A stretch of DNA of 64,000 bases from Isoetes taiwanensis. Lineage: Eukaryota; Streptophyta; Lycopodiopsida; Isoetales; Isoetaceae. The stretch's first letter is position 1. Each line of letters opens with the position of its first letter. Below the pieces are notes generated by a model, which did no database searches, was not told the origin of the DNA, and saw only the letters and a list, made by a program, of their open reading frames with translations. The position numbers were made by a program, and so were the translations under genes. The stretch spans positions 5,255,962-5,319,961 of the forward strand of contig JAJEKV010000054.1 of the NCBI GenBank assembly GCA_021234155.1. The letters run 5' to 3'. This document shows, one piece after another, positions 16,842-49,400 of this stretch.

Positions 16842-17819
16842 TGAGCTCGGGGGAGTGGCCAATATGATTAAGCGTTGGGCAAAATCATATAGAGTTAGTA
16901 AATATCATGATTGGGAACAAAAGACAACGGCAAAGGCAAAGGCAGACCAAAGAAGGCTAAAGTCGCAGAGAGTTCTCTAAATAGAACTTGACCTTCAATT
17001 GGCAATATCTCTGCAACCAGAGCTCTGATGGAGGTGATATTCACTTCACTAGAACCGTCTCAGAGTCTAGTTTCTGAATTGGAGTGGGACATCCCGCAAA
17101 TCATCTGAATAAGAGAGGTATGATCGAAAGAGTGTTAGGGGGGTCAAGAATGACTGCCCTACTCATTGACTCTTGAATCTGATTCTTAGAAAGCCATTAC
17201 CTTTTTCCTAGAGCTTTTGCTGTTCTTGTTTAATATCCTGTTACTATCCTAGAACCTTACTCTTGTTGTATCATATTGAGGACTGCCAGCTCGAGAAAGG
17301 AGCAACAAGAGAAAACTGATTGTCAGATGGGTGAAAGCACGCAAGGGTGTACCATCTAAAGTTCTTTTTAGGGAGTGCAAAACTACCCAGAAAAGTACCC
17401 AGCACTGGGTACTGGGAACTTGCATAAATGTCTCAATAAACAATAAGTTCGAGAGTTGATTCATTTAGTTTAATCTCTAATAGTATTGTGATCCTCTAAT
17501 ACTATAGATTAACATGTTATTGACCTTCAATTCAAAATTTTTGAATTGATTTTAATGGTAAGAAAAAACAGAAAGTGCCAGTTTTAAAAGTACCCAGTGT
17601 AGATACTTTTGAGGGTTCCAAAAGTGGTACACCATAGCATGCTTTCATCCAGATATGCTTTACTGTCTTTTATATTCTAGCATGATATTGCTAGCTGAGT
17701 GGTCCGGTTAGGTGGAGAGTTTTGGGCTAAAGGCCTGGTTTTGAGAATCTTTAATGTTTTAGTGTTGGTTTACTAATTGTTTGATCTTTTGATTACTGGC
17801 CAACCTTTGGTTCGTAACA
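16842..17819 (+). repeat. Left LTR of the small LTR element
   Basis: Matches the right LTR from TGAGCTCGGGGGAGTGGCC to GGTTCGTAACA, but carries an extra segment of about 310 bp (around 17328-17640). That segment is itself flanked by CAGAT-like sequence and contains short AAAGTACCCAG repeats, so it looks like an insertion within the LTR. Confidence 0.75.
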
Positions 17820-18780
17820 AGTGGTGTCAGAGCACGGTTCCGATTTCTCTTGGAGCCTGTGTGTTTTTATTTGACTAAAATTAGTTTACCTATTCTATTA
17901 GAAGTTTTTTAGTATTTCATAAGCAAAGTTAAGAAGTTTAATTCCAAAGAATCAACAATAAGCCTCAGAAAAAGGCATTATATCTCTGAAGCCCTAAACT
18001 TGCCAAAGCTTGCAAAATAAGGTCTTCCCTTCAGTTGAATCTGTAGACTAAGCATGGTGATTTGATTGATCAAGCTCACATCTGCCACATCTGAGCTTTT
18101 AAGCCACCTCTATGAGAAACCTAAAGAATTAGGTAGCTTTAAAAAAAGAAAATTGAAAAGCAGATTTGGATTCCCCTCAGACTCGCCACAGCCTCATTTT
18201 ATTTCACAAATTTGAGGCTAAAATACCAGTCGTTGTAAAATGATTCGATGCCTTTAGGGTATTCCTGAAGAAATTCATGATGCCTTTAGAATGTATTTAA
18301 AACCATTATTTTTGAAAAAGGATCGTGCCATGGTCTCTCCTAGGGTGTGATTGATTAAATCTGCATAAGTATCCGTATTTTATTTGAGCCATTACTTACT
18401 TTGGAATAAACCGTTTCAAGCCTTAGAACTTCCTATAATGTTTATTTGGGTATGTTGAAAGAAAATCATTTAACGCTATGTTAGTAACGAACCATACCAT
18501 TTGATTGGGTTTGCAGGTTCTAATGTCAAAAATGAGTTTTTCACAGGACATAGAAATTATCATGTAGGGAATTATTTTGGGAGATATTCTTACCTTGTTT
18601 TTTGGCACATGAGCAACCTAAGTTTTGGGCATTTGTGGCTATAAGGTAAACGGATATTTGAGTTACATTTGCCTTAGGGAAATTTAAGGTGGAAGTATAA
18701 GGTGTTCTTTTCTTTGTGTAGTGTATAGTAAATCTTGAGACAACTAATATGTCTGTAGCATAATAATTGGAATTGGAATT

Positions 18781-18950
18781 TTTAGCCTAACGGGCTGGAC
18801 TTGAAAGTTTTTAGCCTAAAGGGCTAGACTTGGAAAATTTTTAGCCTAAAGGGCTAGATTTAAAACTTTTTAGCCTAAAGGGCTGGACTTGGAAAATTTT
18901 TAGCCTAAAAGGCTGGAGTTGGAAATTTTTAGCCGAAAGGGCTGGACGTG
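18781..18950 (+). repeat. Six-copy 29-30 bp tandem repeat with AGCC/GGCT hairpins
   Basis: Units begin AGCCTAAAGGGCT at 18784, 18813, 18843, 18872, 18902 and 18931, with spacings alternating 29 and 30. Each holds a small palindrome (AGCC-TAAA-GGGCT). A related GGGCTAAAGGCC motif sits near the end of both LTRs. Confidence 0.9.
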
Positions 18951-19050
18951 ACTATTTCTGATTGTGTAGTTTGTAGCCATGGATTTGGTTATGCTAATTT
19001 TCCACATAATTTCTTGATCGATGACAATCAATCCCGAGAAGGGGAGGAAT

Positions 19051-19729
19051 TGATATGGTTTAAGGCTAATATCTAATAATGAGCTCGGGGGAGTGGCCAA
19101 TATGATTAAGCACTGGGCAAAATCATATAGAGTTAGTAAATATCATGATTGGGAACAAAAGGCAACAGCAAAGGAAAATGCAGACCAAAGAAGGCTAAAG
19201 TCGCAGAGACTTCTATAAATAGAACTTAAACTTCAATTGGCAATATCTCTGCAAATAGAGCCCCGATGGAGGCGATATTTACTTCACTGGAACCATCTCG
19301 GAGTCTAGTTTCTGAATTGGAGTAGCACATCCCATAACTCGTCTGAATAAGAGAGTTATGACCGGAAGAGTGTTAGGGGGTCAAGAATGACTGCTCTACT
19401 CATTCACTCTTGAATCTGATTCTTAGAAAGCCATTACCTTTTTCCTAAAGCTTTTGCTGTTCTTGTTTAATATCCTGTTACTATCCTAGAACCTTACTCT
19501 TGGTGTATCATATTCAGGACTTCTAGCTTGAGAAAGGAGCAACAAGAGGAAACTGATTGTCAGATATGCCTTACTATCTTTATATTCTAGCATGATATTG
19601 CTAGCAGAGTGGTCCGGTTGGGTGGAGAGCTTTGGGCTAAAGGCCTGGTTTTGAGAATCTTTAATGTTTTAGTGTTGGCTTACTAGATGTTTGATCTTTT
19701 GATTACTGGCCAACCTTTGGTTCGTAACA
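19051..19729 (+). repeat. Right LTR of the small LTR element
   Basis: Begins after the purine tract at TGATATGG and shares the body of the left LTR without its roughly 310-bp extra segment. The junction to L1 sequence is at about 19730. Confidence 0.7.
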
Positions 19730-20501
19730 GGTTATCAGTAAATGACTGGAGGAAGGGCATTAATGGGGGATTGTGAATGTCTACGCCCACAATAATGCGC
19801 AGAAGAGGGGAGCATTATGGGCATCTTTGAGGAACAAGGCCAGTGCTTTGGATGCTGGAGTGGCTTGGTTGTTGCTCGGCGATTTCATGGTAGAGGCCAT
19901 TCATGATAGATGTGGCCGAGGATTGGAAGTGGTACAAGATTTCGAGCGAGAATAATGGTTAAAGTTGCTAGATTCTCTACATCTGGTAGAGTCATCTGGA
20001 GACTGTACTTTTACATGGTGCAATCAGTGGACAGGGGTAGGCCGGGCATATGCTAGACATGACAGATGCTATGTGAATACCCTAGTAATGGATCTTGCAC
20101 CCCAGCTCAAGCGGCAAAATATTTTGTTCACCGCGGTCTCTGAACGTACTCCACAGTTAATTTCACAGGGTCTCATTATAGTTTGACCCATGACAACAGT
20201 ATTCAAATTAAATACTAGGTGCTTGAAGGACGCTGATTTCTCTTGGAAATGCCAGCAAATTTGGTTCTGCACTTTTCGGGATAACTTTGGGATGTCATAA
20301 ATGATGAAGGCCTTAGTGGCTGTCAAATCACTCGCAAGGTCTTGGGGAAGACATAAGGCTCAGCAAAAGCGTGAGGCAATGGATGCATTATATAGAGAGC
20401 TTGAAACCCTTAGACTTTGGCCCTTCTGATGGAATACGGGAATATGAGATATTGCGCCTCATTGCAGCTGATGAATCTGAGAGAGCATCTTAGGCAAGGG
20501 T
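19730..20501 (+). pseudogene. L1 LINE endonuclease and linker (interrupted by chromovirus)
   Basis: Frames 19773-19955 and 19965-20186 give the later part of the plant L1 APE domain: VNVYAHNN, LLLGDF (the following Asn is replaced by Met), LHLVESSGDCTFTWCN and YARHDRCYV. RHDR-type residues mark the L1 endonuclease. The stretch after 20186 is the linker toward the RT. It stops at the chromovirus insertion and resumes at 33560 with AWLREGDINSRMFF, the conserved plant L1 block before the RT. Several stops and frame changes make it inactive. Confidence 0.7.
20497..20501. repeat. Chromovirus target-site duplication, left (AGGGT)
   Basis: AGGGT directly precedes the TGTGACG start of the 5' LTR and is repeated at 33555-33559 directly after the CGTCACA end of the 3' LTR. 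Confidence 0.93.
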
Positions 20502-22084
20502 TGTGACGTTCCAAGTAATTATACGGTGTACGTATAAATACATTGACACGTCACTCGGTATAGATACGCCACCTGGGGTATGATAACCTAGGGGGTTGGC
20601 CACAAGGGATTTAATTAGCTATGTTAAATTAATTATAAAGGATAATTATCTAAATACTTGCTATTAAGTCACCTAATGGTGGAAAGGCGCCATTTGGCAT
20701 AACCTGAGTGGCCAGCATGGGGGTTTCTAAACTGAGCCACCAAAGGCAGCGCCACCCCCATCTGTACCCCAATTTCGACCCAGCCAGCACCAAGGAGCAG
20801 CTGAGCGCTCAGAGCACAGTTGCTGAACATCTCCGAATCGCCAAGACACCCTCTACCTGTCGCTGCTACCCCAGTACAGCACTATGGAAGTGCCCCTTGA
20901 CAACGGGTCCAGCCGAAACTCCGGTTAGTGGTAGCTTAACTTGCAAATTGTAGAATAATACTCTAGTATTCTTTTCTGGCTAGTTTTGGTTGAGATTAAC
21001 CCTTCTTTGGTAATTAGGAATACTTTTCAATTATGAATGATGCTCTGTTATGGGATGGTCGATGTCTCTATGAGTTAGTTTAGTAGTTCCAGTAAACAGG
21101 GATTAACAGGGGGGTAGAGGCCTCTGAGCTTGAGTATAGAATGCTCCTAGTACTTCCTTTAATACCCTACTAGTTTCGGCCTGTGCACAAAAGACCACCG
21201 GGTCATAGACGCTATGGTCTGGCTTAGCACCGGACAAGGGACACAGTGGTGAAGTAGGGGGTGGGGTCTTGCACGAGCATATAAGGCTCCTGAGACTCCT
21301 ATAGTGGGCTAGGCCTGATAGCCGGTCACGTAGAGGGCCGGGTATGGGTCTGACACTCCCCGGGTGTAGTGGTGTGACCCGTATGGGGCACCATGCACTT
21401 TGAGTAGAATTAGGGTGAGTAAGTCGGGTACGGATGCGGGGGTCGCTGACGCGGCACGTATTCTCTAGCTCACCCATGGAACCACTGTGATCCTGGAAGG
21501 GGACGCCTCCCCGACCTGCCTCATCGGACCAGGTGTCATGAACCTGGAGTAGGCTCAAAGGGTGATACCTAGAGTCTGCGTCTCCGGAAGGCTATAGCGA
21601 AGCCATAGCGTGAATCGACCCATCTGCAAAGTGTGCGCAGGAGGGGCGGATGGAGTGGACAACCCTAGCTGATGTTCTATGCCAGCAAACGCCATGCCAA
21701 GACTCGGTCTGCTGATCTCCTGAGACCCAGCCGTCAGTCGCTCCTCACTAGAGTCTGAACCGGGGTAGAATCTGGGCTTTGGGTGTTTTCTTAGCTTAGA
21801 TGCATATTCTTTGCCGTTGGTACTTGGATGGATGTGCCACCCCTCGTGGTGGTTATTTATATGTGATTTATGTTGTATGCTAACCTTGTATTCATGCTTC
21901 CGCGACGTAGGCGCCCATCGAAGGCGTGGGCCGAATGACCCCTCCGTGTCCTTCACCTGAGCTTCTCTACGTAGACGGCCCGGGTTAGATGGAGGGCCCT
22001 GCCCGTGGCGAGATGGACGCCATGGGAGGGGAAAGTCCCCGTATGTATACGACCGGGGGTCGTATATATTCAGGGAGCGTCACA
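20502..22084 (+). repeat. Chromovirus 5' LTR
   Basis: Starts TGTGACG and ends CGTCACA, 1,583 bp. A TATAAATA box lies at 20533-20540 and a TGACACGTCA palindrome-like element at 20544-20553, unusually close to the LTR start. Near the end a hairpin (TATACGACC-GGG-GGTCGTATA, 22046-22066) precedes the terminus. The long minus-strand frames in it are shadows, present in both LTRs. Confidence 0.95.
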
Positions 22085-22085
22085 G

Positions 22086-22098
22086 TGGTATCAGAGCC
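22086..22098 (+). other. tRNA-iMet primer binding site
   Basis: TGGTATCAGAGCC begins two bases after the 5' LTR and is the standard plant LTR-retrotransposon primer site, complementary to the 3' end of initiator tRNA-Met. Confidence 0.93.
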
Positions 22099-22841: not shown

Positions 22842-23651
22842 ATGGCCATTACCAAGAGCGCCCCTGACCCTTCTACCCTAAGCATAGTGGAGATTTATGC
22901 CATGATCGCCCGGTACATGGCTACAGACTCGGCTTTCATCGACATCCTTTTGGATGAGTTGGTGAACCGGTTTGAGAATAATGATAGGATCCCCTATCCT
23001 ATCTATCACTTCTCCGAGCCATTCCTGATCCGGTTGAACCTTCGCCAGCTTTCTTATACCATCGTCGAGCAACACGACATGGTCATGATGCTGATTAAGT
23101 TCTATCCTCCTGAACAAGAGGGGCATACCGAGGAGGAGGACATTAGAACAGAAGCCAAACGCATCAGAGGCTTGGCCCAGGAAGATGACCATTGGGAGAT
23201 AGAGCGAGCAGATACGGCGGCTCGGGGAAGAGAGTACTGGTACCTCGGGGACGGCTTTGCCGTCATAGATGGCAGGGCAATTGAGGTTCCCCCATACCGT
23301 TGGGATGAGGATAACAGCAGCTTTATATGGGGGGAAATCCCCGATATCAGCATAGATTATCTGACAACCATTCAGATGGATATGGGTCAGCGGCCCCAGC
23401 GGTACCATGCTGAACTTCTTCGCCGAAGCGCAGCCCAACATTTCGCTCAGGTTCAAGAAGATCTGAGGAGAGCCCGGGAGGAACGGGAGAGGCTTGAACA
23501 GGAGGAGAGGGCTCGGCAGGACCAGCTGAACCAGCAGGGTGCAGGAGCATCCGGGAGTGGGCGGGACCAATACCCACCGAGCACACGACCATTAAGCACC
23601 GTAAGAAGGCCGTGGCTCGAAAATCCGGCAGTCAATACAAGGATAAATTAA
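22842..23651 (+). CDS. Chromovirus extra ORF A, unknown, coiled-coil C-terminus
   Basis: Open frame of 269 codons from ATG at 22842 (CAGCTATGGCC context). The same frame stays open upstream to 22422, but that part is repeat leader and AT-rich intron-like sequence ending TTGCCTTCAG, so I prefer the later start. The N-terminal half is globular ([20 protein letters not shown], then [12 protein letters not shown]). The last third (about residues 185-235) is strongly charged with many R/E and fits a coiled coil, followed by a Gly/Ser-rich tail. I recognise no family. Its end overlaps the H3 frame by about 150 bases in the -1 register, so a fusion with H3 by frameshifting, or an ancestral fusion broken by one indel, is plausible. 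Confidence 0.6.
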
Positions 23652-24085
23652 AGACTGTCGGAGCTTTTGGCAAGAATACCAGCTCCAGTCGGAGACAGCA
23701 GCGGGTGGATGACTCCCGACCAGCTGTTGGGACCAAGACGGTGCCAGCACCGAAGAGGCCGCCTACAAAACCCGCCCCACAAAGGAAGCCCCATCGGTAC
23801 CGACCCGGTACCGTGGCCTTGCGGGAAATCCGCAAGTTTCAGAAGTCCACCCAGCTTCTGATACGGAAGCTTCCCTTCCAGAGGCTGGTACGGGAGATCG
23901 CGCAGGAGTTCAAAACCGACCTCCGCTTCCAGACATTTGCAATTTTGGCGCTCCAAGAGGCTGCGGAGGCCTATTTAGTGGCGCTTTTCGGTGACGCCAA
24001 CCTTTGCGCGATCCACGCAAAGAGGGTTACCATCATGCCTAAGGATTTAGCCCTTGCCCGTAGGATTCGGGGGGAGCATCTTTAG
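23498..24085 (+). CDS. Histone H3-domain protein encoded inside chromovirus
   Basis: The frame is open from 23498 (after a TGA at 23495-23497) to TAG at 24083-24085. The last 98 codons, from [18 protein letters not shown] (23789), are an almost complete H3 core: alpha-N, alpha1 ([19 protein letters not shown]), loop 1 and alpha2 ([14 protein letters not shown]), then [19 protein letters not shown]. About a dozen substitutions from canonical plant H3 are visible, for example Y54F, D77E, S87F and E105G. There is no CENH3-type loop-1 insertion, so it resembles canonical H3 rather than CENH3. The tail is novel ([14 protein letters not shown]..., Ser/Arg/Pro-rich) yet keeps ARKS at 23615-23626, the local context of H3 K9 and K27. 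No ATG exists in this frame; the first near-start is GTG at 23612. Expression may therefore need fusion to ORF A by -1 frameshift, or splicing. AATAAA follows at 24134. Confidence 0.9.
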
Positions 24086-24207
24086 CATATTTTGCTGGGT
24101 TCTCCGCATTGTAAATATTTTTTTTTGAGAATTAATAAAAACTTTTGTTTGTATTAAGCATAATTTTTTTTATTTTTATATTACTTAGTGTTAAATACGA
24201 AATTTGC

Positions 24208-24229
24208 TGACGTCAGCATAAATAAAAGG
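24208..24229 (+). promoter_or_regulatory. Promoter-like motifs before extra ORF B
   Basis: TGACGTCA (24208-24215), a palindromic bZIP site containing the ACGTCA hexamer known from plant histone promoters, is followed directly by a TATA-like CATAAATAAAAGG. These lie about 75-95 bases before the ATG of ORF B. A pyrimidine-rich run ending CTTCCAG just before that ATG could alternatively be a splice acceptor. Confidence 0.4.
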
Positions 24230-25707: not shown

Positions 25708-25900
25708 TTGTACTACACATTTTTGTATTGTGTATGATTGTAAAATTTTGGCTTGGCAAATTCTTTAGCCATTCTATAATATAATATACCCCTTTTCTCA
25801 TCAATTGTGATTACTGTCTTGATGAATACAATTGAGAATTGTTCTTTTCCATGATGTCTTCTTCTAATTATTGGCGTTTAGAATATAATGGAATTACGGA

Positions 25901-26389
25901 ATGTTCTATATTCATTACCATTGTCTTGCAGAAGAGACACTTCTGGAATATGAAGAGAGGATTACAGATCTGATCAGGAGGGAGGATCCAAGGCCGCCCG
26001 AACAGGACTATGGCCAAAGATATGGAGAATATTCTGAATGGGATGAAGGTTACGAGATGGAACCCCCGCCACCAGGAGAACCCTATGATCCAGCCAAAGG
26101 GATGGAGATAGTTAATATCCTCAGGGACAGAGCTTTTGAGGACCTGAAGAAAACTCTGTGCCGCACATGGGACTACTGGAGCATGACCAGGCACGAAGCC
26201 TTTGAGGACGCTAACGACCACCTGTGGCAACTCTTTTATGCTTTGAGGAGGCTTTTCAATCTCCTCATTATTAGCCCAACGTGGGAATACCAACCAGTCA
26301 TTGTCCAGGCCTGGGCACGCTACAAGCTCGTTAGGGCTGTGCGTGAGAGTGTTCGCTATTCAATCCTGTACCCCTTTGCGAACCCCTAG
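25901..26389 (+). CDS. Chromovirus extra ORF C, unknown
   Basis: A 162-codon frame from ATG 25901. A TTGTCTTGCAG acceptor-like sequence ends at about 25931 in the same frame, so the true first exon may begin at EETLLEYEERI. The first third is acidic and Pro/Tyr-rich (REDPRPPEQDYGQRYGEYSE, EPPPPGEPYDP). The rest is helical and Trp/Tyr-rich (LCRTWDYWSMTRHEAFEDAN, then LWQLFYALRRLFNLLI). I recognise no domain. It ends 250 bases before gag, with AATAAA at 26545. Confidence 0.5.
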   Translation: MFYIHYHCLAEETLLEYEERITDLIRREDPRPPEQDYGQRYGEYSEWDEGYEMEPPPPGEPYDPAKGMEIVNILRDRAFEDLKKTLCRTWDYWSMTRHEAFEDANDHLWQLFYALRRLFNLLIISPTWEYQPVIVQAWARYKLVRAVRESVRYSILYPFANP

Positions 26390-26637
26390 GCCGGGTCTTT
26401 CTAGTTTCTTTTTGTGTTATATACTGTGTGTGAGCTCAACTTTAAGCTTCAGTCGTATCATGTTATCCTTGTGTAATACTCCTGTATCAACTTTTGACAG
26501 TACTAAGGTGTGAAACTGTAATAGAAAAGTTTTCCTCTTATAATAATAAATTTTCCTTGTATTCTCTCTCTACCCTTTGTCCGACATGATAAAATTTGTA
26601 AGAATTTATGTGTTATAAGTATGCTTATACCTTTTTC

Positions 26638-27830
26638 ATGCTCGATTTAGACGGTGCACGTAACGCCACCTGGCAAACACCTTCAAATGCCAGTAGACTC
26701 ACACCCGAACAGGAACTGATGTTAATGAAAAGGCAGTTAGGCGAGTTACAAGCCTATGTGTTGCATGCCAACCCACCGCAGCAAACCCAGGAGGATGGAC
26801 CGGAGTTACCCCCGCTACCACCGAGTCCACCTGCACAACAGCCATCTCCCCCTGGAGCCAGTCCTGTACCTGCACCAAGGAGGCCCCATGCTAAGCGTCA
26901 CCGAAGTTCCTCTAAGGATAGTGCCACTTCCTCACGCTCAACTACTTCAGTGTCTTCTGGATCATCGGTATCAGCTGGTGACCACGCAAAGCGCCGGGAT
27001 AAGGAATACCGTGAAGGCGGTTGATCTGACTATAACCGGTATATGGAAGAATAGGAAATTGGCCCGGTTTGATGGCAAATCCAGGCCGGACTAAATGCGA
27101 GAATCCTGGTTTGGACGAGATGAAGGAGTTTGGGAAGTCTTATGGCATGGCGGAGAAGGATCTGAGAAAGGTTGCCACCACCAACCTTACTGGGAGCTGC
27201 CGTGTATTTGGTGGAAGGGCTATGCGGGGCCAAGCATCCGGACAAGAGCGGATGCAACCGGGGAAGTTTGCCAAGGCTTTCAAGTCACATTATGTGCCTC
27301 GCGGCGCACAAGTGCCGACAAATTCAGACCTTTTATAGGTTGGAGCGAAGGGTATGACGGTTCAGGGCTTATAATCGATGAATTTATCTTTGCTGAGGTT
27401 TGTATGTACCGTGTATGACTGAAAAGAGAGCCGTAGAGGGTTATATTGAAGGGTTGGCCCCATCGATCAAACGGATGGTTAAAGCCATAGACCCAAAATC
27501 AGTTGCGGAGGCTGAGGCTAAGGCATTGAGCCTCGAGGAGGACACACCAAGGAACCAAGATCCGGCGTCCCGCTCCCCTACCATGAGCCTCGCCATCCAC
27601 ACCATACAAACCCGGCCGCCAAGCCCGGGCCTCTCAGCCGAGAATTCCTATGGCGCGCGGGAAAGAAAGTTACCTTCACCACGGCGGATAAACAGAGCAA
27701 TGTCGGTAAGGAAGTACGGAACCTCTTACAGTCAATTCCTAAAGAGGCCCGAGAACAGCTCCGCCGGGATAAGGCATGCTACAGGTGTATGCGGCCCGGG
27801 CACTTTATGCACAATTGCCCTTATGTTACG
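26638..27830 (+). pseudogene. Chromovirus gag (frameshifted) with CCHC knuckle
   Basis: Starts MLDLDGARNATW and runs to a stop at 27022-27024 through a Pro/Ser-rich region. Typical gag blocks then appear in three frames: EKDLRKVATTNLTG, FAKAFKSHYVPRGAQVP, then RAVEGYIEGLAPSIKRMVKA (about 27433-27490). The nucleocapsid knuckle CYRCMRPGHFMHNC (C-x2-C-x4-H-x4-C) lies at 27777-27818. Gag would assemble the virus-like particle and bind RNA; here at least three indels break it. Confidence 0.8.
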
Positions 27831-27839
27831 CAGACTGCC

Positions 27840-28570
27840 CAGCTGGCCATGGCCGACCTCGATTGGGACGATCTGGAGTCGACCTTACCTGTCGAAGACG
27901 AGGCTCCCGAGTATATTCACGGTGCGTCTCATATCCTTGCAGCTATAGAAACCGGCAATGCCGAAAGTCAGCCTGCTGTCATTTCCACCATAGGTCAAGT
28001 AGACAGTAAGCCTTTCATAATTCTTATGGATACAGGAAGTACACATAATTTTGCTTCTCCTAGGATGGCCCAGGTCTTACAGCTTGAAACATTAAGATCC
28101 CGACCGAGGCCTGTTACTCTAGCCAGTGGTAAGGTCAGGCATACTCATGGCCGCCGCATCAATCTTAAGATGCAGTTGCCAGGTGCACCAGTTGCTTTGG
28201 GTGCCGAATTGATGGATATTGGCAAATATGACCTCATTGTTGGTATGGAATTCTTGGCATCTGCAAAAGCCAACATAGACTACGAGAAGAGAGAAGTTAC
28301 CTTCAACACCGCTAATGGAGCCCGCGTGACTATCAAAGGTGAACCATTCAACCCTATCATGCAGTCTATGTCCATCAGACAGTTACCTAAAGCTATACGC
28401 AAGGAAAAGCTCCTTTACGTCATTATGCTTGCTTCCATAGAGTCAGATACTAAACAGAAGCAAGTAATCGATACCCTACCAGAGGGGATTGCTCATCTTC
28501 TCCGGGAATTTAGTGACCTTTTCCCAGATGAGATTCAGAAGCTTCCTCCTTCTAGAGGGGTGGAATGTGA
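27840..28570 (+). pseudogene. Chromovirus aspartic protease
   Basis: In the 314-codon frame 27789-28733. The catalytic motif ILMDTGSTHNF (DTGS at 28029-28040) is followed by MDIGKYDLIVGMEFLA, the second conserved protease block (usually D.ILGMDWL). The frame is open and leads directly into the RT. The protease cleaves the Gag-Pol precursor. Confidence 0.88.
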
Positions 28571-29371
28571 AATAACTTTAGAGCCAGGTACCAAGCCTAC
28601 CAGCAAGGCCCCGTACTGCATGAGTCCTCCAGAATTGGCAGAACTTAAGAAGCAACTTCAGGAGCTACTAAACCTAGCGTTTCGCCTTTTGGCGCTCCTA
28701 TTCTCTTCGTTAAGAAAAAGGACGGCTCGCTGAGGATGTGTATTGATTATCGGCAACTCAACAAGCATACTATCAAGAATCGCTATGCTTTGCCTCGAGC
28801 CGATGACCTAATGGATCAGTTGCAAGGGGCTAAGTATTTCTCAAAGATTGATCTACGCTCCGGATACCATCAGATAAGGATCAAGGAGGAGGACATCCAT
28901 AAATCCGCTTTTCGCACTAGGTATGGGCATTATGAATTTACAGTTATGCCTTTTGGATTAACTAATGCCCCAGCCACGTTCATGCGACTAATGAATGATG
29001 TCTTCCGACAATACTTGGATGATTTTGTTGTTATTTTCTTCGACGACATTCTCATCTATAGTAAGACCCTCGAGGAGCATGAGAAACATCTTAGATTGGC
29101 CCTACAAAAGCTAAGGCGTCATCAGCTCTATGCTAAGTTCTCTAAGTGCAAGTTTGCCACTCCGAAGGTCGATTACTTGGGCCATATCATCTCGGCAGAG
29201 GGAATTGCTACAGACCCCGCAAAGATAGAGGCCGTAAGAGAATGGCCTATTCCAGGAAATGTTTCCGAAGTCCGAAGTTTCTTGGGATTAGCAGGATATT
29301 ATCGAAAATTTGTAAGGATTTTGCGAAGATTGCAGCCCCTCTTACAAATCTCACAAAGCAAGAGAAGGTGA
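28571..29371 (+). pseudogene. Chromovirus reverse transcriptase
   Basis: The N-terminal part ([27 protein letters not shown]) ends at a frameshift near 28690, after which the second frame (28736-29371) holds [42 protein letters not shown] and the catalytic box as FFDDIL (29039 on; both Asp present), then LGHIIS and [14 protein letters not shown] second frameshift at about 29330-29370 separates it from RNase H. Without those indels the RT would be standard for a chromovirus. Confidence 0.9.
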
Positions 29372-29850
29372 AAGATTGGATGGAGCACTGGAAGACAAAA
29401 GTTCAGGAAAGCTTCCAGCAGCTTAAGGATGCCTTAACATCAGCACCAGTTCTCACATTGCCCGATCCTGACCAGGATAAACTGGTGGCGACGGATGCCA
29501 GCAAGATTGCCACCGGGGAGTCCTAATGCAGGAGGGGAGGGTTATTGCCTATGATTCAAAGAAAATGAACGAAACAGAGCAGCGATATCCTACCCATGAC
29601 CAGGAATTGTTAGCCGTTGTCCGTGCCTTGCGAATATGGAGACACTACCTTCTTGGTAGAAGATTCCAGTTGGATACGGATCATCAGAGTCTCCGTTATT
29701 TATCCACCCAGCCGAATCTCAATCTCCGCCAGAGAAGATGGATGGAATTCCTGGAGGAATATGATTTTGAGATTATGTACAAGCCTGGCAAGCACAATGT
29801 GGTTGCGGATGCATTGTCACGCCATCCCTTGGCGACCCGAACCCATTGCA
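29372..29850 (+). pseudogene. Chromovirus RNase H
   Basis: The connection region (SAPVLTLPDPDQD) and LVATDAS, the first catalytic Asp, end at a frameshift stop at about 29524. The next frame continues GRVIAYDSKKMNETEQRYP, HDQELLAVVRALRIWRHYL, TDHQSLRYL and NVVADALSRHP, the conserved end of Ty3/Gypsy RNase H. One deleted base near 29517 accounts for the break. Confidence 0.88.
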
Positions 29851-31410
29851 ATGCCATTTCTACACTCACCAGTGAGTTTGGGAAACAGATAGAGCAGACC
29901 TTGGCCACAGATCCGGAGTTCCGTGACATTTGGGATAGTTTGGCTAAGGAAGCTCGCACGGATAAGGAACGCGACGCCTTTCGTGCGTATAAGAAAGAGG
30001 GCAACTTATTATATCATATGGATAAGTTGTGCGTACCTCAGACGTCGGGAGTCCGTAAGCTAATCCTCCACGACACCCACAACAGCCCTATAGCTGGACA
30101 TTCAGGGTTTATGAAAACCTACTTTAAGATTTGTTCCAGTTATTTTTGGCCTTCTATGAAAAAGGACATTGTCAGATACATTAAGCAGTGTCAGGTATGC
30201 CAGCAAACTAAGGCTGAACAGTTAAGGATCCCAGGTGAGTTACAACCTCTAGACGTGTCCAACGCCAAATGGGAAGTGATAACCATGGATTTCATTGTGG
30301 GCCTTCCACGAACTCTCCGGGGGATGCCTTAATGGTAGTCGTCGACAAATTGTCGAAAATGGCTCATTTCTTGCCATGTCGTACCACGGATACAGCTTTT
30401 GATACTGCTCTGCTATTTGCCAAGGAGATCTTCAGATTACACGGAATGCCACGAGTCATTGTATCGGCTGGGATCCCAAATTCGTAAGCGCATTCTGGAA
30501 AGATTTCTTTGCCACCATCCAGACCAAGCTTGCTATGAGTACGGCATATCATCCTCAAACAGATGGCCAGACAGAACGTACCAATCGCATTATAGAGGAT
30601 ATGCTAAGAAGTTATGTGTGGAGTAAGCAATCACAATGGGCTGACTATATTTATCTGGTCGAGTTTGCCTATAACAGTATGAAACAGGAGTCTTCCAGAA
30701 TGTCTCCCTTTATGATAAACTATGGTTACCAATGTCTAACTCCAGACACTTGGCATAACCCCGTTTCTAAGGTGGAGGTTTCTCAAAAACTCCTCCTGGA
30801 GATGCAAGCTCTGGTCGAAGAAGTTCGTGGCTACTTGTTGGCTGCACGCAGTCGTCAGAAGAGTGTAGCCGATAAGCACAGAACCCCACGCGTTTTCCAG
30901 GTGGGCGAATCAGTTTGGCTTAAAATCAAAGTAAAGCAAGCCAAGCTTAGGATTGGCAACTGTAAAAAGTTGGCCCCCAGATGGGCTGGACCATTCAAGA
31001 TTATTGAGCGCGTTGGAGAGCAGGCATATCGCTTAGAATTGCCGCCCCGCTTGAAGATCCACAAGGTCTTTCACGTGAGTCTTTTGAAACAACACACCCC
31101 TGATCCAGAGGAGGTTTTGGATTCCCCAACCCTCCTGGAAATGACGGAAGAGCAACTCGAAATAGTGCCTGAAGCTCTTCTTGATCGAGCTTACAAACAA
31201 ACCAGAAGGACTCAAATGTTGCAATACTTGGTTAAGTGGAAACACTTACCAGTTGAGGACGCTACGTGGGTGATGAAGATTGACCTTGACAAGCATTATC
31301 CGAACTTCATGCGCGAATCTGAAGGCCGCACCATCAACGATGCTATCAACCCCGCAACTGGCGGTAAGCTTAGAAGCTTGATTGCCACAAGTGGCGCCTT
31401 AGAGGGGTAG
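29851..31410 (+). pseudogene. Chromovirus integrase with C-terminal chromodomain
   Basis: H-H-C-C finger HNSPIAGHSG ... CQVCQQTK at about 30070-30215. The core begins [13 protein letters not shown] (first catalytic Asp), is frameshifted at about 30330 and again at about 30470, where the second-Asp block (normally SDRDP-like) is damaged, then resumes at 30535 with STAYHPQTDGQTERTNR (catalytic Glu region). The GPY-like module WAGPFKIIERVGEQAYRLELP follows. The chromodomain lies at about 31168-31314 (LLDRAYKQ ... YLVKWKHLPVEDATW). Chromodomains of chromoviruses read methylated H3 tails and steer integration to heterochromatin, which matters because the same element encodes an H3-like protein. 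Confidence 0.9.
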
Positions 31411-31985: not shown

Positions 31986-33554
31986 TGTGACGTTCCAAGT
32001 AATTATACGGTGTACGTATAAATACATTGACACGTCACTCGGTATAGATACGCCACCTGGGGTATGATAACCTAGGGGGTTGGCCACAAGGGATTTAATT
32101 AGCTATGTTAAATTAATTATAAAGGATAATTATCTAAATACTTGCTATTAAGTCACCTAAGGGTGGGAAGGCGCCATTTGGCATAACCTGAGTGGCCAGC
32201 ATGGGGGTTTCTAAACTGAGCCACCAAAGGCAGCGCCACCCCCATCTGTACCCCAATTTCGACCCAGCCAGCACCAAGGAGGCGGTGGCGCTTCAGAGCA
32301 CGATTCTTTGAACATCTCGAATCGCCAAGACACCCTCTACACATTGCCGCCGCTACCCCAAGACAAAGACTATGGAAGCACCCCTTGACAACGGGTCCAG
32401 CCGAAACTCTGGTTAGTGGTAGTTTAACTTGCAAATTGTAGAATAATACTCTAGTATTCTTTTCTGGCTAGTTTTGGTTGAGATTAACCCTTCTTTGGTA
32501 ATTAGGAATACTTTTCAATTATGAATGATGCTCTGTTATGGGATGGTCGATGTCTCTATGAGTTAGTTTAGTAGTTCGATGCTTGAGGGATTAACAGGGG
32601 GGTAGAGGCCTCTGAGCTTGAGTATAGAATGCTCCTAGTACTTCCTTTAATACCCTACTAGTTTCGGCCTGTGCACAAAAGACCACCGGGTCATAGACGC
32701 TATGGTCTGGCTTAGCACCGGACAAGGGACACAGTGGTGAAGTAGGGGGTGGGGTCTTGCACGAGCATATAAGGCTCCCTGAGACTCCTATAGTGGGCTA
32801 GGCGATAGCCGGTCACACGAGGGGGCGGGTATGGGTCTGACACTCCCCGGGTGTAGTGGTGTGACCCGTATGGGGCACCATGCACTTTGAGTAGAATTAG
32901 GGTGAGTAAGTCGGGTACGGATGCGGGGGTCGCTGACGCGGCACGTATTCTCTAGCTCACCCATGGAACCACTGTGATCCTGGAAGGGGACGCCTCCCCG
33001 ACCTGCCTCATCGGACCAGGTGTCATGAACCTGGAGTAGGCTCAAAGGGTGATACCTAGAGTCTGCGTCTCCGGAAGGCTATAGCGAAGCCATAGCGTGA
33101 ATCGACCCATCTGCAAAGTGTGCGCAGGAGGGGCGGATGGAGTGGACAACCCTAGCCGATGTTCTATGCCAGCCAACGCCATGCCAAGGCTGATCTCCTG
33201 AGACCCAGCCGTCAGTCGCTCCTCACTAGAGTCTGAACCGGGGTAGAACCTGGGCTTTGGGTGTTTTCTTAGCTTAGATGCATATTCTTTGCCGTTGGTA
33301 CTTGGATGGATGTGCCACCCCTCGTGGTGGTTATTTATATGTGATTTATGTTGTATGCTAACCTTGTATTCATGCTTCCGCGACGTAGGCGCCCATCGAA
33401 GGCGTGGGCCGAATGACCCCTCCGTGTCCTTCACCTGAGCGTAGACGGCCCGGGTTAGATGGAGGGCCCTGCCCGTGGCGAGATGGACGCCATGGGAGGG
33501 GAAAGTCCCCGTATGTATACGACCGGGGGTCGTATATATTCAGGGAGCGTCACA
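31986..33554 (+). repeat. Chromovirus 3' LTR
   Basis: Collinear with the 5' LTR (1,569 against 1,583 bp), starting TGTGACG and ending CGTCACA. Differences cluster around 32280-32370 and 32570-32580, plus short indels such as at about 33185, so the two LTRs have diverged since insertion. Confidence 0.95.
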
Positions 33555-33559
33555 AGGGT
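33555..33559. repeat. Chromovirus target-site duplication, right (AGGGT)
   Basis: Exact copy of 20497-20501. The L1 sequence resumes after it. Confidence 0.93.
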
Positions 33560-46335: not shown

Positions 46336-47229
46336 TTCCTTCGCCTCAACCCTGCCCTTCTGCTAGTTATTTATTTATTTATTTATTTTTATTTTTATTT
46401 TTTAAGCAGGCTTGCCTAACCTAACCTGGGGTGCAAGATACGTTACTTGCCACCTCATCTAATATTGTTTCCAACCATTGGATCTTTAAAATTATGCATC
46501 AACGGTTCACGAAATTAGAAAAGCCCTGAAATTAGCCTCCCGGCCTCCTATGACCATGGCTCTCCAGTATCATTACGCGATCGATCCATGTTTTGTGTTG
46601 GTGTAAACTGAGAAGAATGAATTTTGGATTGAGAAACTTAGGCGGAAGGCAGAGAAGAGAGAAGGCAGGACTGAGTAGTGTGTTTTGTTAAGCTTTGGGT
46701 TTTGCATAACAACTTTCTTGAAGAGCTTCGACATGCTACGGTTTTGTTACTGCAGCCTTGTTCATGTTCAAGTGTTCAACTATTGTTGTGCCCAACAATC
46801 AAAGGAGCAGTCCTTCCAATCCTCTGCTAGTGCTCGCCTAGATATCCGAAGCAAACCCCTGTGCATCAACCAACCTCCGCCCTCGGCCGGAGGAACCCTG
46901 GGCCGAACCACGACTTGCTGTGCTCAACCATGGCTTGCTCTGCTCAACCATGGCGACTGCCTAAGCATACTGGATTTAGTGGATTTGGAAATCCACAAAA
47001 CAACATCTCCACTGAAAAAAATATCTTGCAATCTGTTCACTACTCACTTTACAAATTTGCATTCTACTCTGTACTCAACAGCAACAACTTGCTACACAGT
47101 GGCTCGAATTAAATTGGGTTTTCTCGAATTGTCTTCAAGATCATGCAAGCATTTACGTTACTCAGCAGCTGCACTATTGGGATGTCAGATCAGTTCTGCT
47201 ACAAAAGTAGCCGAACATTGTTACATTGA
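46336..47229. other. Unassigned region upstream of LINE D
   Basis: Contains an ATTT-rich simple repeat at about 46.37-46.40 kb. An open plus-strand frame from about 46.69 kb runs into the LINE RT downstream, but its first 180 codons match nothing I know. They may be host sequence fused to the 5'-truncated LINE by chance. Confidence 0.35.
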
Positions 47230-49400
47230 AGAAAAAAAGGCAGCCGAGGTTCCGGTGGGCATGATTTGGAAGGATATTCAGGGAGCTACCAATTGGAACG
47301 GAATGTTGAATCCAATCGTTCCAAGCCTGAACTCCATAGGCCGACAAGAGCGGCATGCAATCCTGACCTGTCTCTTCACGGCATTATTCAATAAAGCATT
47401 GCAAGAAGGCTTCCCTCCGCAGTGGACCACTAATAGAGTTGTGCCCATATACAAGGCAGGGGACCCTCAATGCCCGGCCAACTATCGTACTATTATGGCA
47501 GGGGCCGCTGCTCAAGGATGCCAGCCAACCTTTTTTTTTTTTCCTCAAAAAAAAAAAGAAAAACTGTTGGCTGGCATCCTTGAGCAGCGGCTGACAATAT
47601 CGGCAGAGGAGGCAGATGTGCGAGCTCTCACACAGGCAGGTTTTCGGCCCAGGCATTCCACCATTGATCATATGTTCACTCTGCGCACATTGATTGAGGA
47701 TAGCAGGAATCACCGACAAAACCTGTACTGTTGTTTCGTGGATTTCGCAAAAGCTTTTGACACAGTGCCCCGGGGGACAGGTTATGGGACAGACTGCGGC
47801 AGCTGGGGACCCTCCTTGACTTGCAGAATGCAGTATATAGGCTATATGAGCATGCTCAGGCCGTATCACATCGTCAGGACAGCCGGTAATCAGTAGTATT
47901 GGAGTGCGTCAGGGTTGCCCCCTCTCCCCCACACTCTTTGGCCTATACATTGACCAGTTGGAAGATTGGCTCTCTGAGCATGGAGGTGCGGGCAACCATC
48001 TCATGCATCACACAATCTGGCAACTCATATATGCTGACGATGTCAACCTCCTGGCATATACTCCAGAGGACATACAACGTCACCTGGATGCTCTTTGATA
48101 TTTTTTGCCGATTCACTAGCATGCGAGTTAACTTGGCCAAAACTAGGGTGTGCTAGTTTCATCATCCCATCAGCCACGGCTTCCCTCATTCATTTACCAG
48201 GGACAAGATGTAGAGGTGGCTCCGACCTACAAGTACTTGGGGATCGAGTTCTCTACTACCACCCATTGGGATGCTGCCATCAGGTTGCGGGTCATGGCGG
48301 GTTGGAAAGCACTATATGCCATGCAGAACAACAGCCACAAGGCGGAGTTGTATACCTGGGAACACCAGTCACACTTGTTTCGGGCCTTGGTCGAGCCGGT
48401 CCTTTTGTATGGGGCAAAAGTGTGGGGTCCGGTGATATCCCTTAACACCTGGAATGACCTCGAGCAGGTGCAGAAAGCCTTCTTGGCACGAGCCCTTGGC
48501 GTAAAGTCCACAGTTCCATACCAGATCCTACTCCAGGAGACGGGTTTTCTGCCCCTTCAACGGGCTGCATTGGAACGTCATATCATTTACTTCCAGAAGG
48601 TGGTCGCTATGGGTGATACACGTTTGCCCAACCTTGCTTTGGCCATGGCGATGGGTCCCCAATGCCTGAAAGCCTGCTGGAAGGACAAGCAAGCTCAGTG
48701 GTTCTCACGATGGGGTGTACAAACAAACAGACGCGTACATGTAAGGACAAAGAAAGATCACAAGGCACTTAAGCTGTACCTAGATGCTACTTTCCTTTGC
48801 AAGCTCTAGGATGCAGATGCTCTGACGCACGTTAAGCTGGCACACTATCAGCAGCAAGTCAATCATAGGCTCACGAGAGGCCCACAGCAGTACTTGTACA
48901 CCCAGTTGCCCATGAAGAAGCGCAGACTTATAGCTTCCATTCGCATGGGTGCACATCGCCTCCGCATTGAGACAGGACGTTGGGCTCGGGAAGCACGAGA
49001 GCAAAGGCTTTGCCAGTGTTGCCACCAGGGCGCCATTGAGGATGAATGTCATGCCCTCCAGATCTGCCCAATCCGAGAGCGGTATGTTCGATTACTAGTG
49101 CCTGGCCAACCGTTGCATGAGTTATTGAATACGGCGTCAGTGGGTTTGTTGGGGTCATACCTCCAGGAGGTTATGGATGCACGGACTCAGTTGAGTCCTC
49201 CGGGACGGTATTGAACTGTCCTATACAATTGTACAACGTGCCAGCATACTTATTACTGCTAAGGTTTTTCCCTCGAAAACCCTTCGGGGCGGGGTTTTTT
49301 TAATCCTGTCAATAATAGGCTTGCTGCCCTCTTTTTGTTTGGGTCCCATAGGCCAATCGGTCTCCGTGGACGCTAAAAAATCTATTCTATTCTTCCCAAT
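47230..49400 (+). mobile_element. LINE copy D (same superfamily), 5'-truncated
   Basis: Relative of the LINEs at 0.3-6.8 kb with better preserved frames. RT motifs: LFNKALQEGFPPQWTTNRVVPIYKAGDP, ANYRTIM, AGFRPRHSTIDH, CCFVDFAKAFDTVPRG, GVRQGCPLSPTLFGLYIDQLEDW and an intact LIYADDVNLLAY (YADD 48030-48041). The C-terminal region continues in 48150-48809 (YKYLGIEFSTTTHWDAAIRL, GAKVWGPVI, ARALGVKSTVPYQILLQETG) and 48894-49214 (ASIRMGAHRLRIETGRW, finger CQCC...HALQIC). Frame breaks occur at about 47780-47900, 48095-48150 and 48809. The 3' UTR holds CTCGAAAACCCTTCGGGG and GGTCTCCGTGGACG, shared with the fragment at 53.6 kb. The start position is approximate. Confidence 0.85.
47504..47591. repeat. 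88-bp hairpin inside LINE D RT frame
   Basis: Perfect 26-bp arms (47504-47529 and 47566-47591, GCCGCTGCTCAAGGATGCCA...) flank a T12/A11-rich loop. The right arm encodes the expected RT residues (LLAGILEQRL); the left arm is its inverted copy. It lies where family members read directly from NYRTIM to KLLAGIL. Confidence 0.95.

Follow-up and report, generated by a model that had tools for sequence, protein, structure and literature searches.

Ogre/Tat LTR retrotransposons carry an ORF upstream of gag, and bdelloid LTR elements reportedly carry captured ORFs; we know of no histone in either. Chromoviruses, the chromodomain-bearing Ty3/Gypsy elements of the Metaviridae, have been surveyed in fungi and lycophytes. 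In the parts of that survey available to us, the majority of fungal elements have one or two ORFs, some carry a captured dUTPase, a figure legend marks an 'add. ORF' of unknown function, and a histone gene is not reported (PMC2864245). Capture of histone H3 by a transposon has been described for hAT DNA transposons of Dothideomycete fungi. According to the accessible portions of these accounts, the H3 copies of P. fijiensis are mostly truncated, and all except the original gene are RIP-inactivated (PMC6710886, PMC3538342). No LTR retrotransposon with a histone gene was noticed in our literature search, outside which most subscription papers lie, and the word 'histone' is absent from the main texts, as far as these were available, of the genome papers on Isoetes taiwanensis (PMC8566536) and I. 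sinensis. Here we describe a chromovirus family of I. taiwanensis that carries a histone H3 core joined to an ORF of the element.

A chromovirus with additional frames ahead of gag

The window (the whole stretch of 64,000 nucleotides from I. taiwanensis that was analysed) contains a single chromovirus LTR retrotransposon of 13,053 bp (~13.05 kb), complete with LTRs, target site duplication (TSD), PBS and PPT (Table 1). We take the PBS to be of the initiator Met tRNA type. Pfam matches place reverse transcriptase (RT) and RNase H ahead of integrase, and the chromodomain at the integrase C-terminus scores 34.0 bits against PF00385 (cut-off 25.1). The protease, RT, RNase H and integrase domains together with this C-terminal chromodomain identify the element as a chromovirus. 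In the window copy, gag-pol is broken and spread over several frames.

The element is surrounded by sequence that looks LINE-like by eye. Frames at 46679-48809 resemble, again by eye, a non-LTR (LINE) reverse transcriptase, and a 71% similar piece is found in L066. Directly upstream of the element, at 16842-19732, are direct repeats of 487 and 173 bp with 92-94% identity, spaced 1.9-2.2 kb apart, that probably represent another repeat element.

Table 1. Features of the element, in window coordinates.
Feature	Position	Strand	Basis
TSD AGGGT, 5' copy	20497..20501		
5' LTR (TGTGACG...CGTCACA)	20502..22084	+	K2P 0.033 vs 3' LTR
PBS TGGTATCAGAGCC	22086..22098	+	sequence
ORF1 frame (MANTKSAP...), in other copies the N-terminal portion of an ORF1-H3 fusion; not in frame with H3 in the window copy	22842..23651	+	
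H3 frame, linker/tail and histone fold	23498..24085	+	open over 195 codons
H3 core, K37 to C-terminus, 99 residues	23786..24082	+	match to histone H3
Palindrome TGCTGACGTCAGCA ahead of ORF2, in variable AT-rich DNA	24205..24218	+	kept as TGACGTCA in 26/29 aligned copies
ORF2, 467 aa	24304..25707	+	one database homologue, P0122, 42%
ORF3	25889..26389	+	matched in 5/7 long copies
gag region, split over several frames in the window copy	26608..27948	+	
Frame with zinc knuckle (by eye) and protease	27522..28733	+	RVP_2 E 1.6e-12
Reverse transcriptase frame	28649..29371	+	RVT_1 E 1.5e-36
RNase H / integrase zinc-binding frame	29481..30332	+	Pfam matches
Integrase C-terminal part and chromodomain (about 31165-31311)	30403..31410	+	PF00385 E 2.9e-8
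PPT AAGGAGGGGAGAA	31973..31985	+	sequence
3' LTR	31986..33554	+	sequence repeat with 5' LTR
TSD AGGGT, 3' copy	33555..33559		

H3 is a family trait of the element

The I. taiwanensis genome (1,658,258,908 bases in 1,110 contigs) was searched with the H3 frame, and the best 150 of 9,982 first-look candidates were scored. All have E<1e-85 at 79-100% identity and mostly span query residues ~21-194, which correspond to the core plus the unrelated tail. Among these best 150 of 9,982 matches, 57 have an open frame of at least 400 aa and a stop-free match, and 31 contain a stop. We examined 48 copies: that of the window, seven that were returned and 40 picked by rank spread across the 150. ORF1 lies 5' of H3 on the same strand in all 48, at a distance within 100 nt of the window spacing in 47 and about 0.8 kb longer in the remaining one (L005). 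ORF2 sequence is found within the fetched stretch in 45 of the 48, the exceptions being L037, L039 and L040. Four copies (L014, L022, L026, L038) have an ORF2 only about 46-70% identical to that of the window and a main H3 segment at 82-94%; judged by their sequences, they are further subfamilies.

Seven copies were read at length, six over ~16.5 kb and the seventh over 10 kb. Five of them show 5' LTR, ORF1, H3, ORF2, ORF3, gag, protease, integrase pieces and 3' LTR in order. One of the five (L056/L057) is without RT, its protease continuing into the integrase region, and another (L053) has its 3' LTR in pieces only. L060/L061 matches ORF1, H3 and ORF2; LTR, ORF3, gag and pol have no match there. 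L062, which is cut by the fetched stretch, includes a partial 5' LTR, ORF1, H3, a partial ORF2, gag, protease and RT; no match to ORF3 or the gag start was found within that stretch. TSDs of 5-6 bp, identified by eye, flank each of the four copies for which both ends were read. LTR divergences of the copies are 0.0175, 0.018, 0.043 and 0.0955, a spread indicating that insertions took place over a long period.

The association also holds when anchored on RT instead of H3. An RT search of the genome listed the best 150 of 29,701 candidates, of which 39, the window's included, have a listed H3 match 3-20 kb upstream on the same strand. The spacing is 5.0-5.3 kb in 28 of these 39 pairs. Control orientations gave 3 pairs; the pairing used the best 150 of 9,982 H3-frame matches, and the pair counts are lower bounds. 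When ten more RT places, chosen by eye on recurring contigs, were compared with the matches of a canonical H3.3 query, 8 had an H3 2.5-20 kb upstream. Three RT places without a listed H3 were read in detail. The first has a broken H3 (L068) at the expected place and belongs to an older subfamily. At the second, the ORF2 start adjoins LINE-like sequence where the H3 end is expected, and the third has a weak LTR match only. H3 is thus a trait of the element family, located at the same place across copies, including copies with their own LTRs.

The H3 core and the ORF1-H3 fusion

The last 99 residues of the H3 frame are a histone H3 core (PF00125, E 2e-41), and the closest solved structure to the frame is 7ux9, 'Histone H3.3' (E 1.8e-53). 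No insertions or deletions interrupt the alignment of the fold to H3.3. Compared with canonical plant H3.3, 13 of the 99 core positions are changed in the window copy; one of these changes, E77, is common to all three host H3 genes read (L063-L065). The first-pass annotation had described a near-complete H3 fold with about a dozen changes inside Gypsy LTRs and a target duplication, in agreement with these results. It overlooked the fusion to ORF1 in other copies, and that in this copy gag-pol is broken and the fusion is out of frame. No ATG lies ahead of the histone fold in the H3 frame of the window copy, whose sole Met is close to the end of the fold.

The histone fold is intact in most copies of a 39-copy set, and about ten core substitutions have reached or approached fixation: Y54F (39 of 39), E59Q (36 of 38, with D in 2), V89I (37 of 38), T107A (36 of 38, with V in 2), and S86T, H87F, G102A, E105G, I124L and Q125A (36-39 of 38-39 copies). 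Changes 86, 87 and 89 sit in a segment that is presumably read by H3 chaperones and distinguishes them. Residues 41, 87 and 90 are diagnostic of the H3.3 type versus the H3.1 type. Position 41 is Y in 29 of 39 element copies and F in 10, position 87 is F in 38 of 38, and L90 is present in 37 of 38. The host H3 genes read have Y41 and L90 regardless of whether position 87 is H or S.

In the window copy, the ORF1 and H3 frames overlap at 23498-23651 and are mutually out of frame. No -1 slippery heptamer was seen by eye in this overlap, and the broken fusion frame was therefore taken as damage of the window copy. A single open frame of 404-452 aa from the ORF1 start to the H3 end is found in 17 of the 48 copies, two of which (L025, L031) read beyond the usual stop; several have small deletions. 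The fusion is composed of ORF1 (~230 aa), a basic linker (~70 aa) and the H3 core.

The sequence ahead of the fold does not resemble the canonical N-terminal tail (ARTKQTARKS...): the ~70 residues before the fold beat shuffles at P<0.05 in none of 39 copies, and we thus reject a relic of the H3 tail. The four residues directly before GSQY spell ARKS in 24 of the 39 copies and ARKT in 4, and differ from both in the remaining 11. Speculatively, ARKS could mimic the H3 K9/K27 context. ORF1 contains no recognisable domain, and a protein search with it gave no database match at E<=0.001. A comparison of ORF1 with ORF2 found no homology, and scans of viral contigs and genome contigs for relatives of either gave no lead. 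The predicted structures are poor, with a mean pLDDT of 41 for the fusion (H3 part included) and 36 for ORF2, and do not reach the confidence that a fold search requires.

Strong constraint on the H3 core

Selection was assessed (NG86) on 39 of the 48 copies. The filter dropped frames shorter than 160 aa or without the RPGT motif (L020, L022, L028, L033, L035, L036, L037, L040 and L048 were left out), and pairs sharing too few codons were dropped. Pooled over 97 codons of the H3 core, pN is 0.018 and pS 0.397, giving a pN/pS of 0.046; the median dN/dS over 692 pairs is 0.029. In the same 39 copies pN/pS is 0.18 for ORF1 and 0.26 for the tail, and the ratio for ORF2 is 0.23 (25 of 48 copies; one HSP over 400 residues). 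The core ratio drops with distance, from 0.114 (7 pairs) to 0.066 (83), 0.045 (264) and 0.043 (199), a trend that near-neutral change after insertion, combined with filtering of the older changes, would produce. By rising distance, ORF1 gives 0.34, 0.16, 0.18 and 0.19, and the tail shows no drop (0.20, 0.23, 0.23, 0.29).

Because the copies were picked for their similarity to the H3 frame, pN is biased downward. We estimate this bias to be too small to bring pN from ~0.4 to 0.018: at a pS of ~0.4, neutral cores would differ at an estimated ~90 nonsynonymous sites compared with the ~4 seen, which is more than a choice of the best of ~10,000 explains. Judged by these substitution patterns, very strong purifying selection acted on the H3 core as the family amplified. 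The ORF1-H3 fusion is almost certainly a selected gene of the element.

Relation to host H3

The canonical H3.3 query listed 150 matches in the genome, 15 of which are intact 136-aa frames at 97-99% identity and the other 135 are at 72-87%; host H3 genes split by introns could sit among these lower matches or be absent. Across 38 copies, the element cores are 83.5-89.7% (~88%) identical to the host genes L063 and L064, with a mean pS of 0.91 and 0.98, respectively; this comparison took in these two genes and left out L065. The near-saturated synonymous sites suggest that the capture is old. E77, which occurs in all three host genes, is present in 27 of the 38 element copies. Derivation of the core from a host H3 is supported by its sequence. 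The element differs from host H3 in its missing canonical tail, about ten fixed core changes and an altered C-terminus.

The broken H3 of L068, which precedes an RT of this chromovirus family by about five kb, has Q125 and, as in H3.3, H87. It resembles an intermediate state, nearer to host H3, and hints at an H3.3-like source.

The first-pass annotation had put forward a host origin of the H3 and proposed to look for it in other copies and to compute dN/dS across them. The identity to the two host genes bears out the first point; other LTR-bearing copies carry H3 at the same place, and the core is strongly constrained across the 39 of 48 copies compared. Its further suggestion, that the element may employ the H3 to mark, enter or compete in chromatin, would be compatible with these results.

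CENH3 also combines a diverged tail with a conserved histone fold, and has a longer loop 1 and a diverged fold. The tail of the element H3 is likewise diverged, but its fold aligns to H3.3 without gaps, unlike that of CENH3. On the comparisons made with H3.3 and with two host H3 genes (~88% core identity), we reject an origin from CENH3.

ORF2, ORF3 and the intervening DNA

A database search with ORF2 identified P0122 (ena) as the sole homologue at E<=0.001, 41-43% identical to the best-matching Isoetes copies. As judged by this one match, a relative of ORF2 exists elsewhere, probably in another organism. The best hit of a PDB profile search with ORF2 has an E of 0.56.

The DNA upstream of ORF2 was aligned for 29 of the 48 copies, those in which the start motif was found. 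The palindrome TGCTGACGTCAGCA, taken in the window alone, is a single match that is not above chance. A TATA-like regular expression matches in 13 of the 29 aligned copies only, and a pyrimidine run ending in AG directly precedes the ORF2 ATG. This region with TGACGTCA may be a promoter, possibly internal, or a splice acceptor. The AT-rich gap between ORF2 and ORF3 (25708-25931) ends in ATTACCATTGTCTTGCAG, which resembles an intron end by eye, and the two ORFs may be joined by splicing.

A possible nucleosomal role of the fusion

Transposon silencing works through histone-tail marks, and the findings suggest that this element uses a nucleosome part of its own. If expressed, the fusion protein would pair with H4 and enter nucleosomes. 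We infer this from the near-complete preservation of the core: it has about ten fixed changes, and those at 86, 87 and 89 fall in the segment that chaperones presumably read. A nucleosome containing the fusion would lack the canonical H3 tail and display ORF1 instead, and could represent the element's foothold in chromatin. Its most likely use would be to mark chromatin for the element's own integration complex with its chromodomain integrase, or to hold the element's own chromatin open. We consider it reasonably probable, from the pattern of conservation, that the ORF1-H3 fusion acts in nucleosomes, and we lean to a similar degree towards an element that makes an H3 that enters nucleosomes, with ORF1 replacing the modifiable tail. 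There is perhaps an even chance that the selected fusion is the element's own histone variant in the full sense, which enters nucleosomes with its tail replaced by ORF1 and sets up a private chromatin state usable by integrase or transcription.

The H3 tail lysines K9 and K27 carry silencing methylation. Their absence could make the fusion an anti-silencing histone that is placed on element DNA and keeps it active. This would fit the intact fold and the lack of a recognisable H3 tail in all 39 copies, but ARKS, which stands before the fold in 24 of them, could itself be a methylation mimic, and there is no known mechanism that would direct the fusion to element DNA. We regard this explanation as unlikely.

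Less likely still is a packaging or import factor, whose basic H3 part would condense element cDNA or RNA in the particle, or carry it to the nucleus, outside of nucleosomes. The fusion is indeed encoded 5' of gag in the same element. A mere nucleic-acid binder, however, does not need near-total conservation of the fold, including the residues that face H4 and H3'; the assignment of the kept residues to contacts with H4, H3' and DNA is our assumption.

The changes at 86, 87 and 89 would also suit a decoy that titrates host H3 chaperones or H4 and thereby disturbs host chromatin assembly. Such a protein would have no need of the DNA-contacting residues, which are kept, and we consider this role very improbable.

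A host H3 pseudogene that landed a single time in one LTR element would agree with the broken gag-pol and fusion frame of the window copy. We reject this explanation, because the H3 segment recurs genome-wide together with ORF1 and the unrelated tail, at the same place and in copies that have their own LTRs and TSDs. Passive capture followed by repeated conversion by host H3 genes, which are numerous (at least 15 intact frames among the matches listed), would account for low divergence without selection and has next to no probability, as the element cores have their own fixed changes and are near-saturated at synonymous sites compared with two host genes.

With an H3 core of its own that lacks the canonical tail and is kept by selection, a retrotransposon family would have a tool acting directly at the level of chromatin. 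The family also provides a naturally occurring H3 variant whose fixed changes include some in the segment presumably read by chaperones, and makes it testable whether a mobile element can write its own nucleosomes.

Comparison with known systems

Nearly all of the best 120 of 7,987 matches in a protein database search with the H3 frame are multi-H3 or host-type proteins, as judged by names and lengths. A scan of viral contigs (IMG/VR) with the H3 frame gave a sole match, a distant H3-like stretch with 38% identity (L001:1054-1338).

The element resembles other chromoviruses in its LTRs, PBS, PPT, the order of protease, RT, RNase H and integrase, and its C-terminal chromodomain. It differs by three frames added between the 5' LTR and gag, the first of which is fused to the H3 core in other copies. 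The presence of extra ORFs in an LTR element is shared with Ogre/Tat and bdelloid LTR elements, to which it is likened by description only.

H3 capture is already known from the fungal hAT elements; in the accounts as far as available, these too form a transposon family in which an H3-like coding sequence is carried along and multiplied. A Pfam scan of nine frames gave no match to a hAT domain. The fungal elements are DNA transposons, whereas the Isoetes element is an LTR retrotransposon in which H3 is fused to an ORF of the element and its core is strongly constrained.
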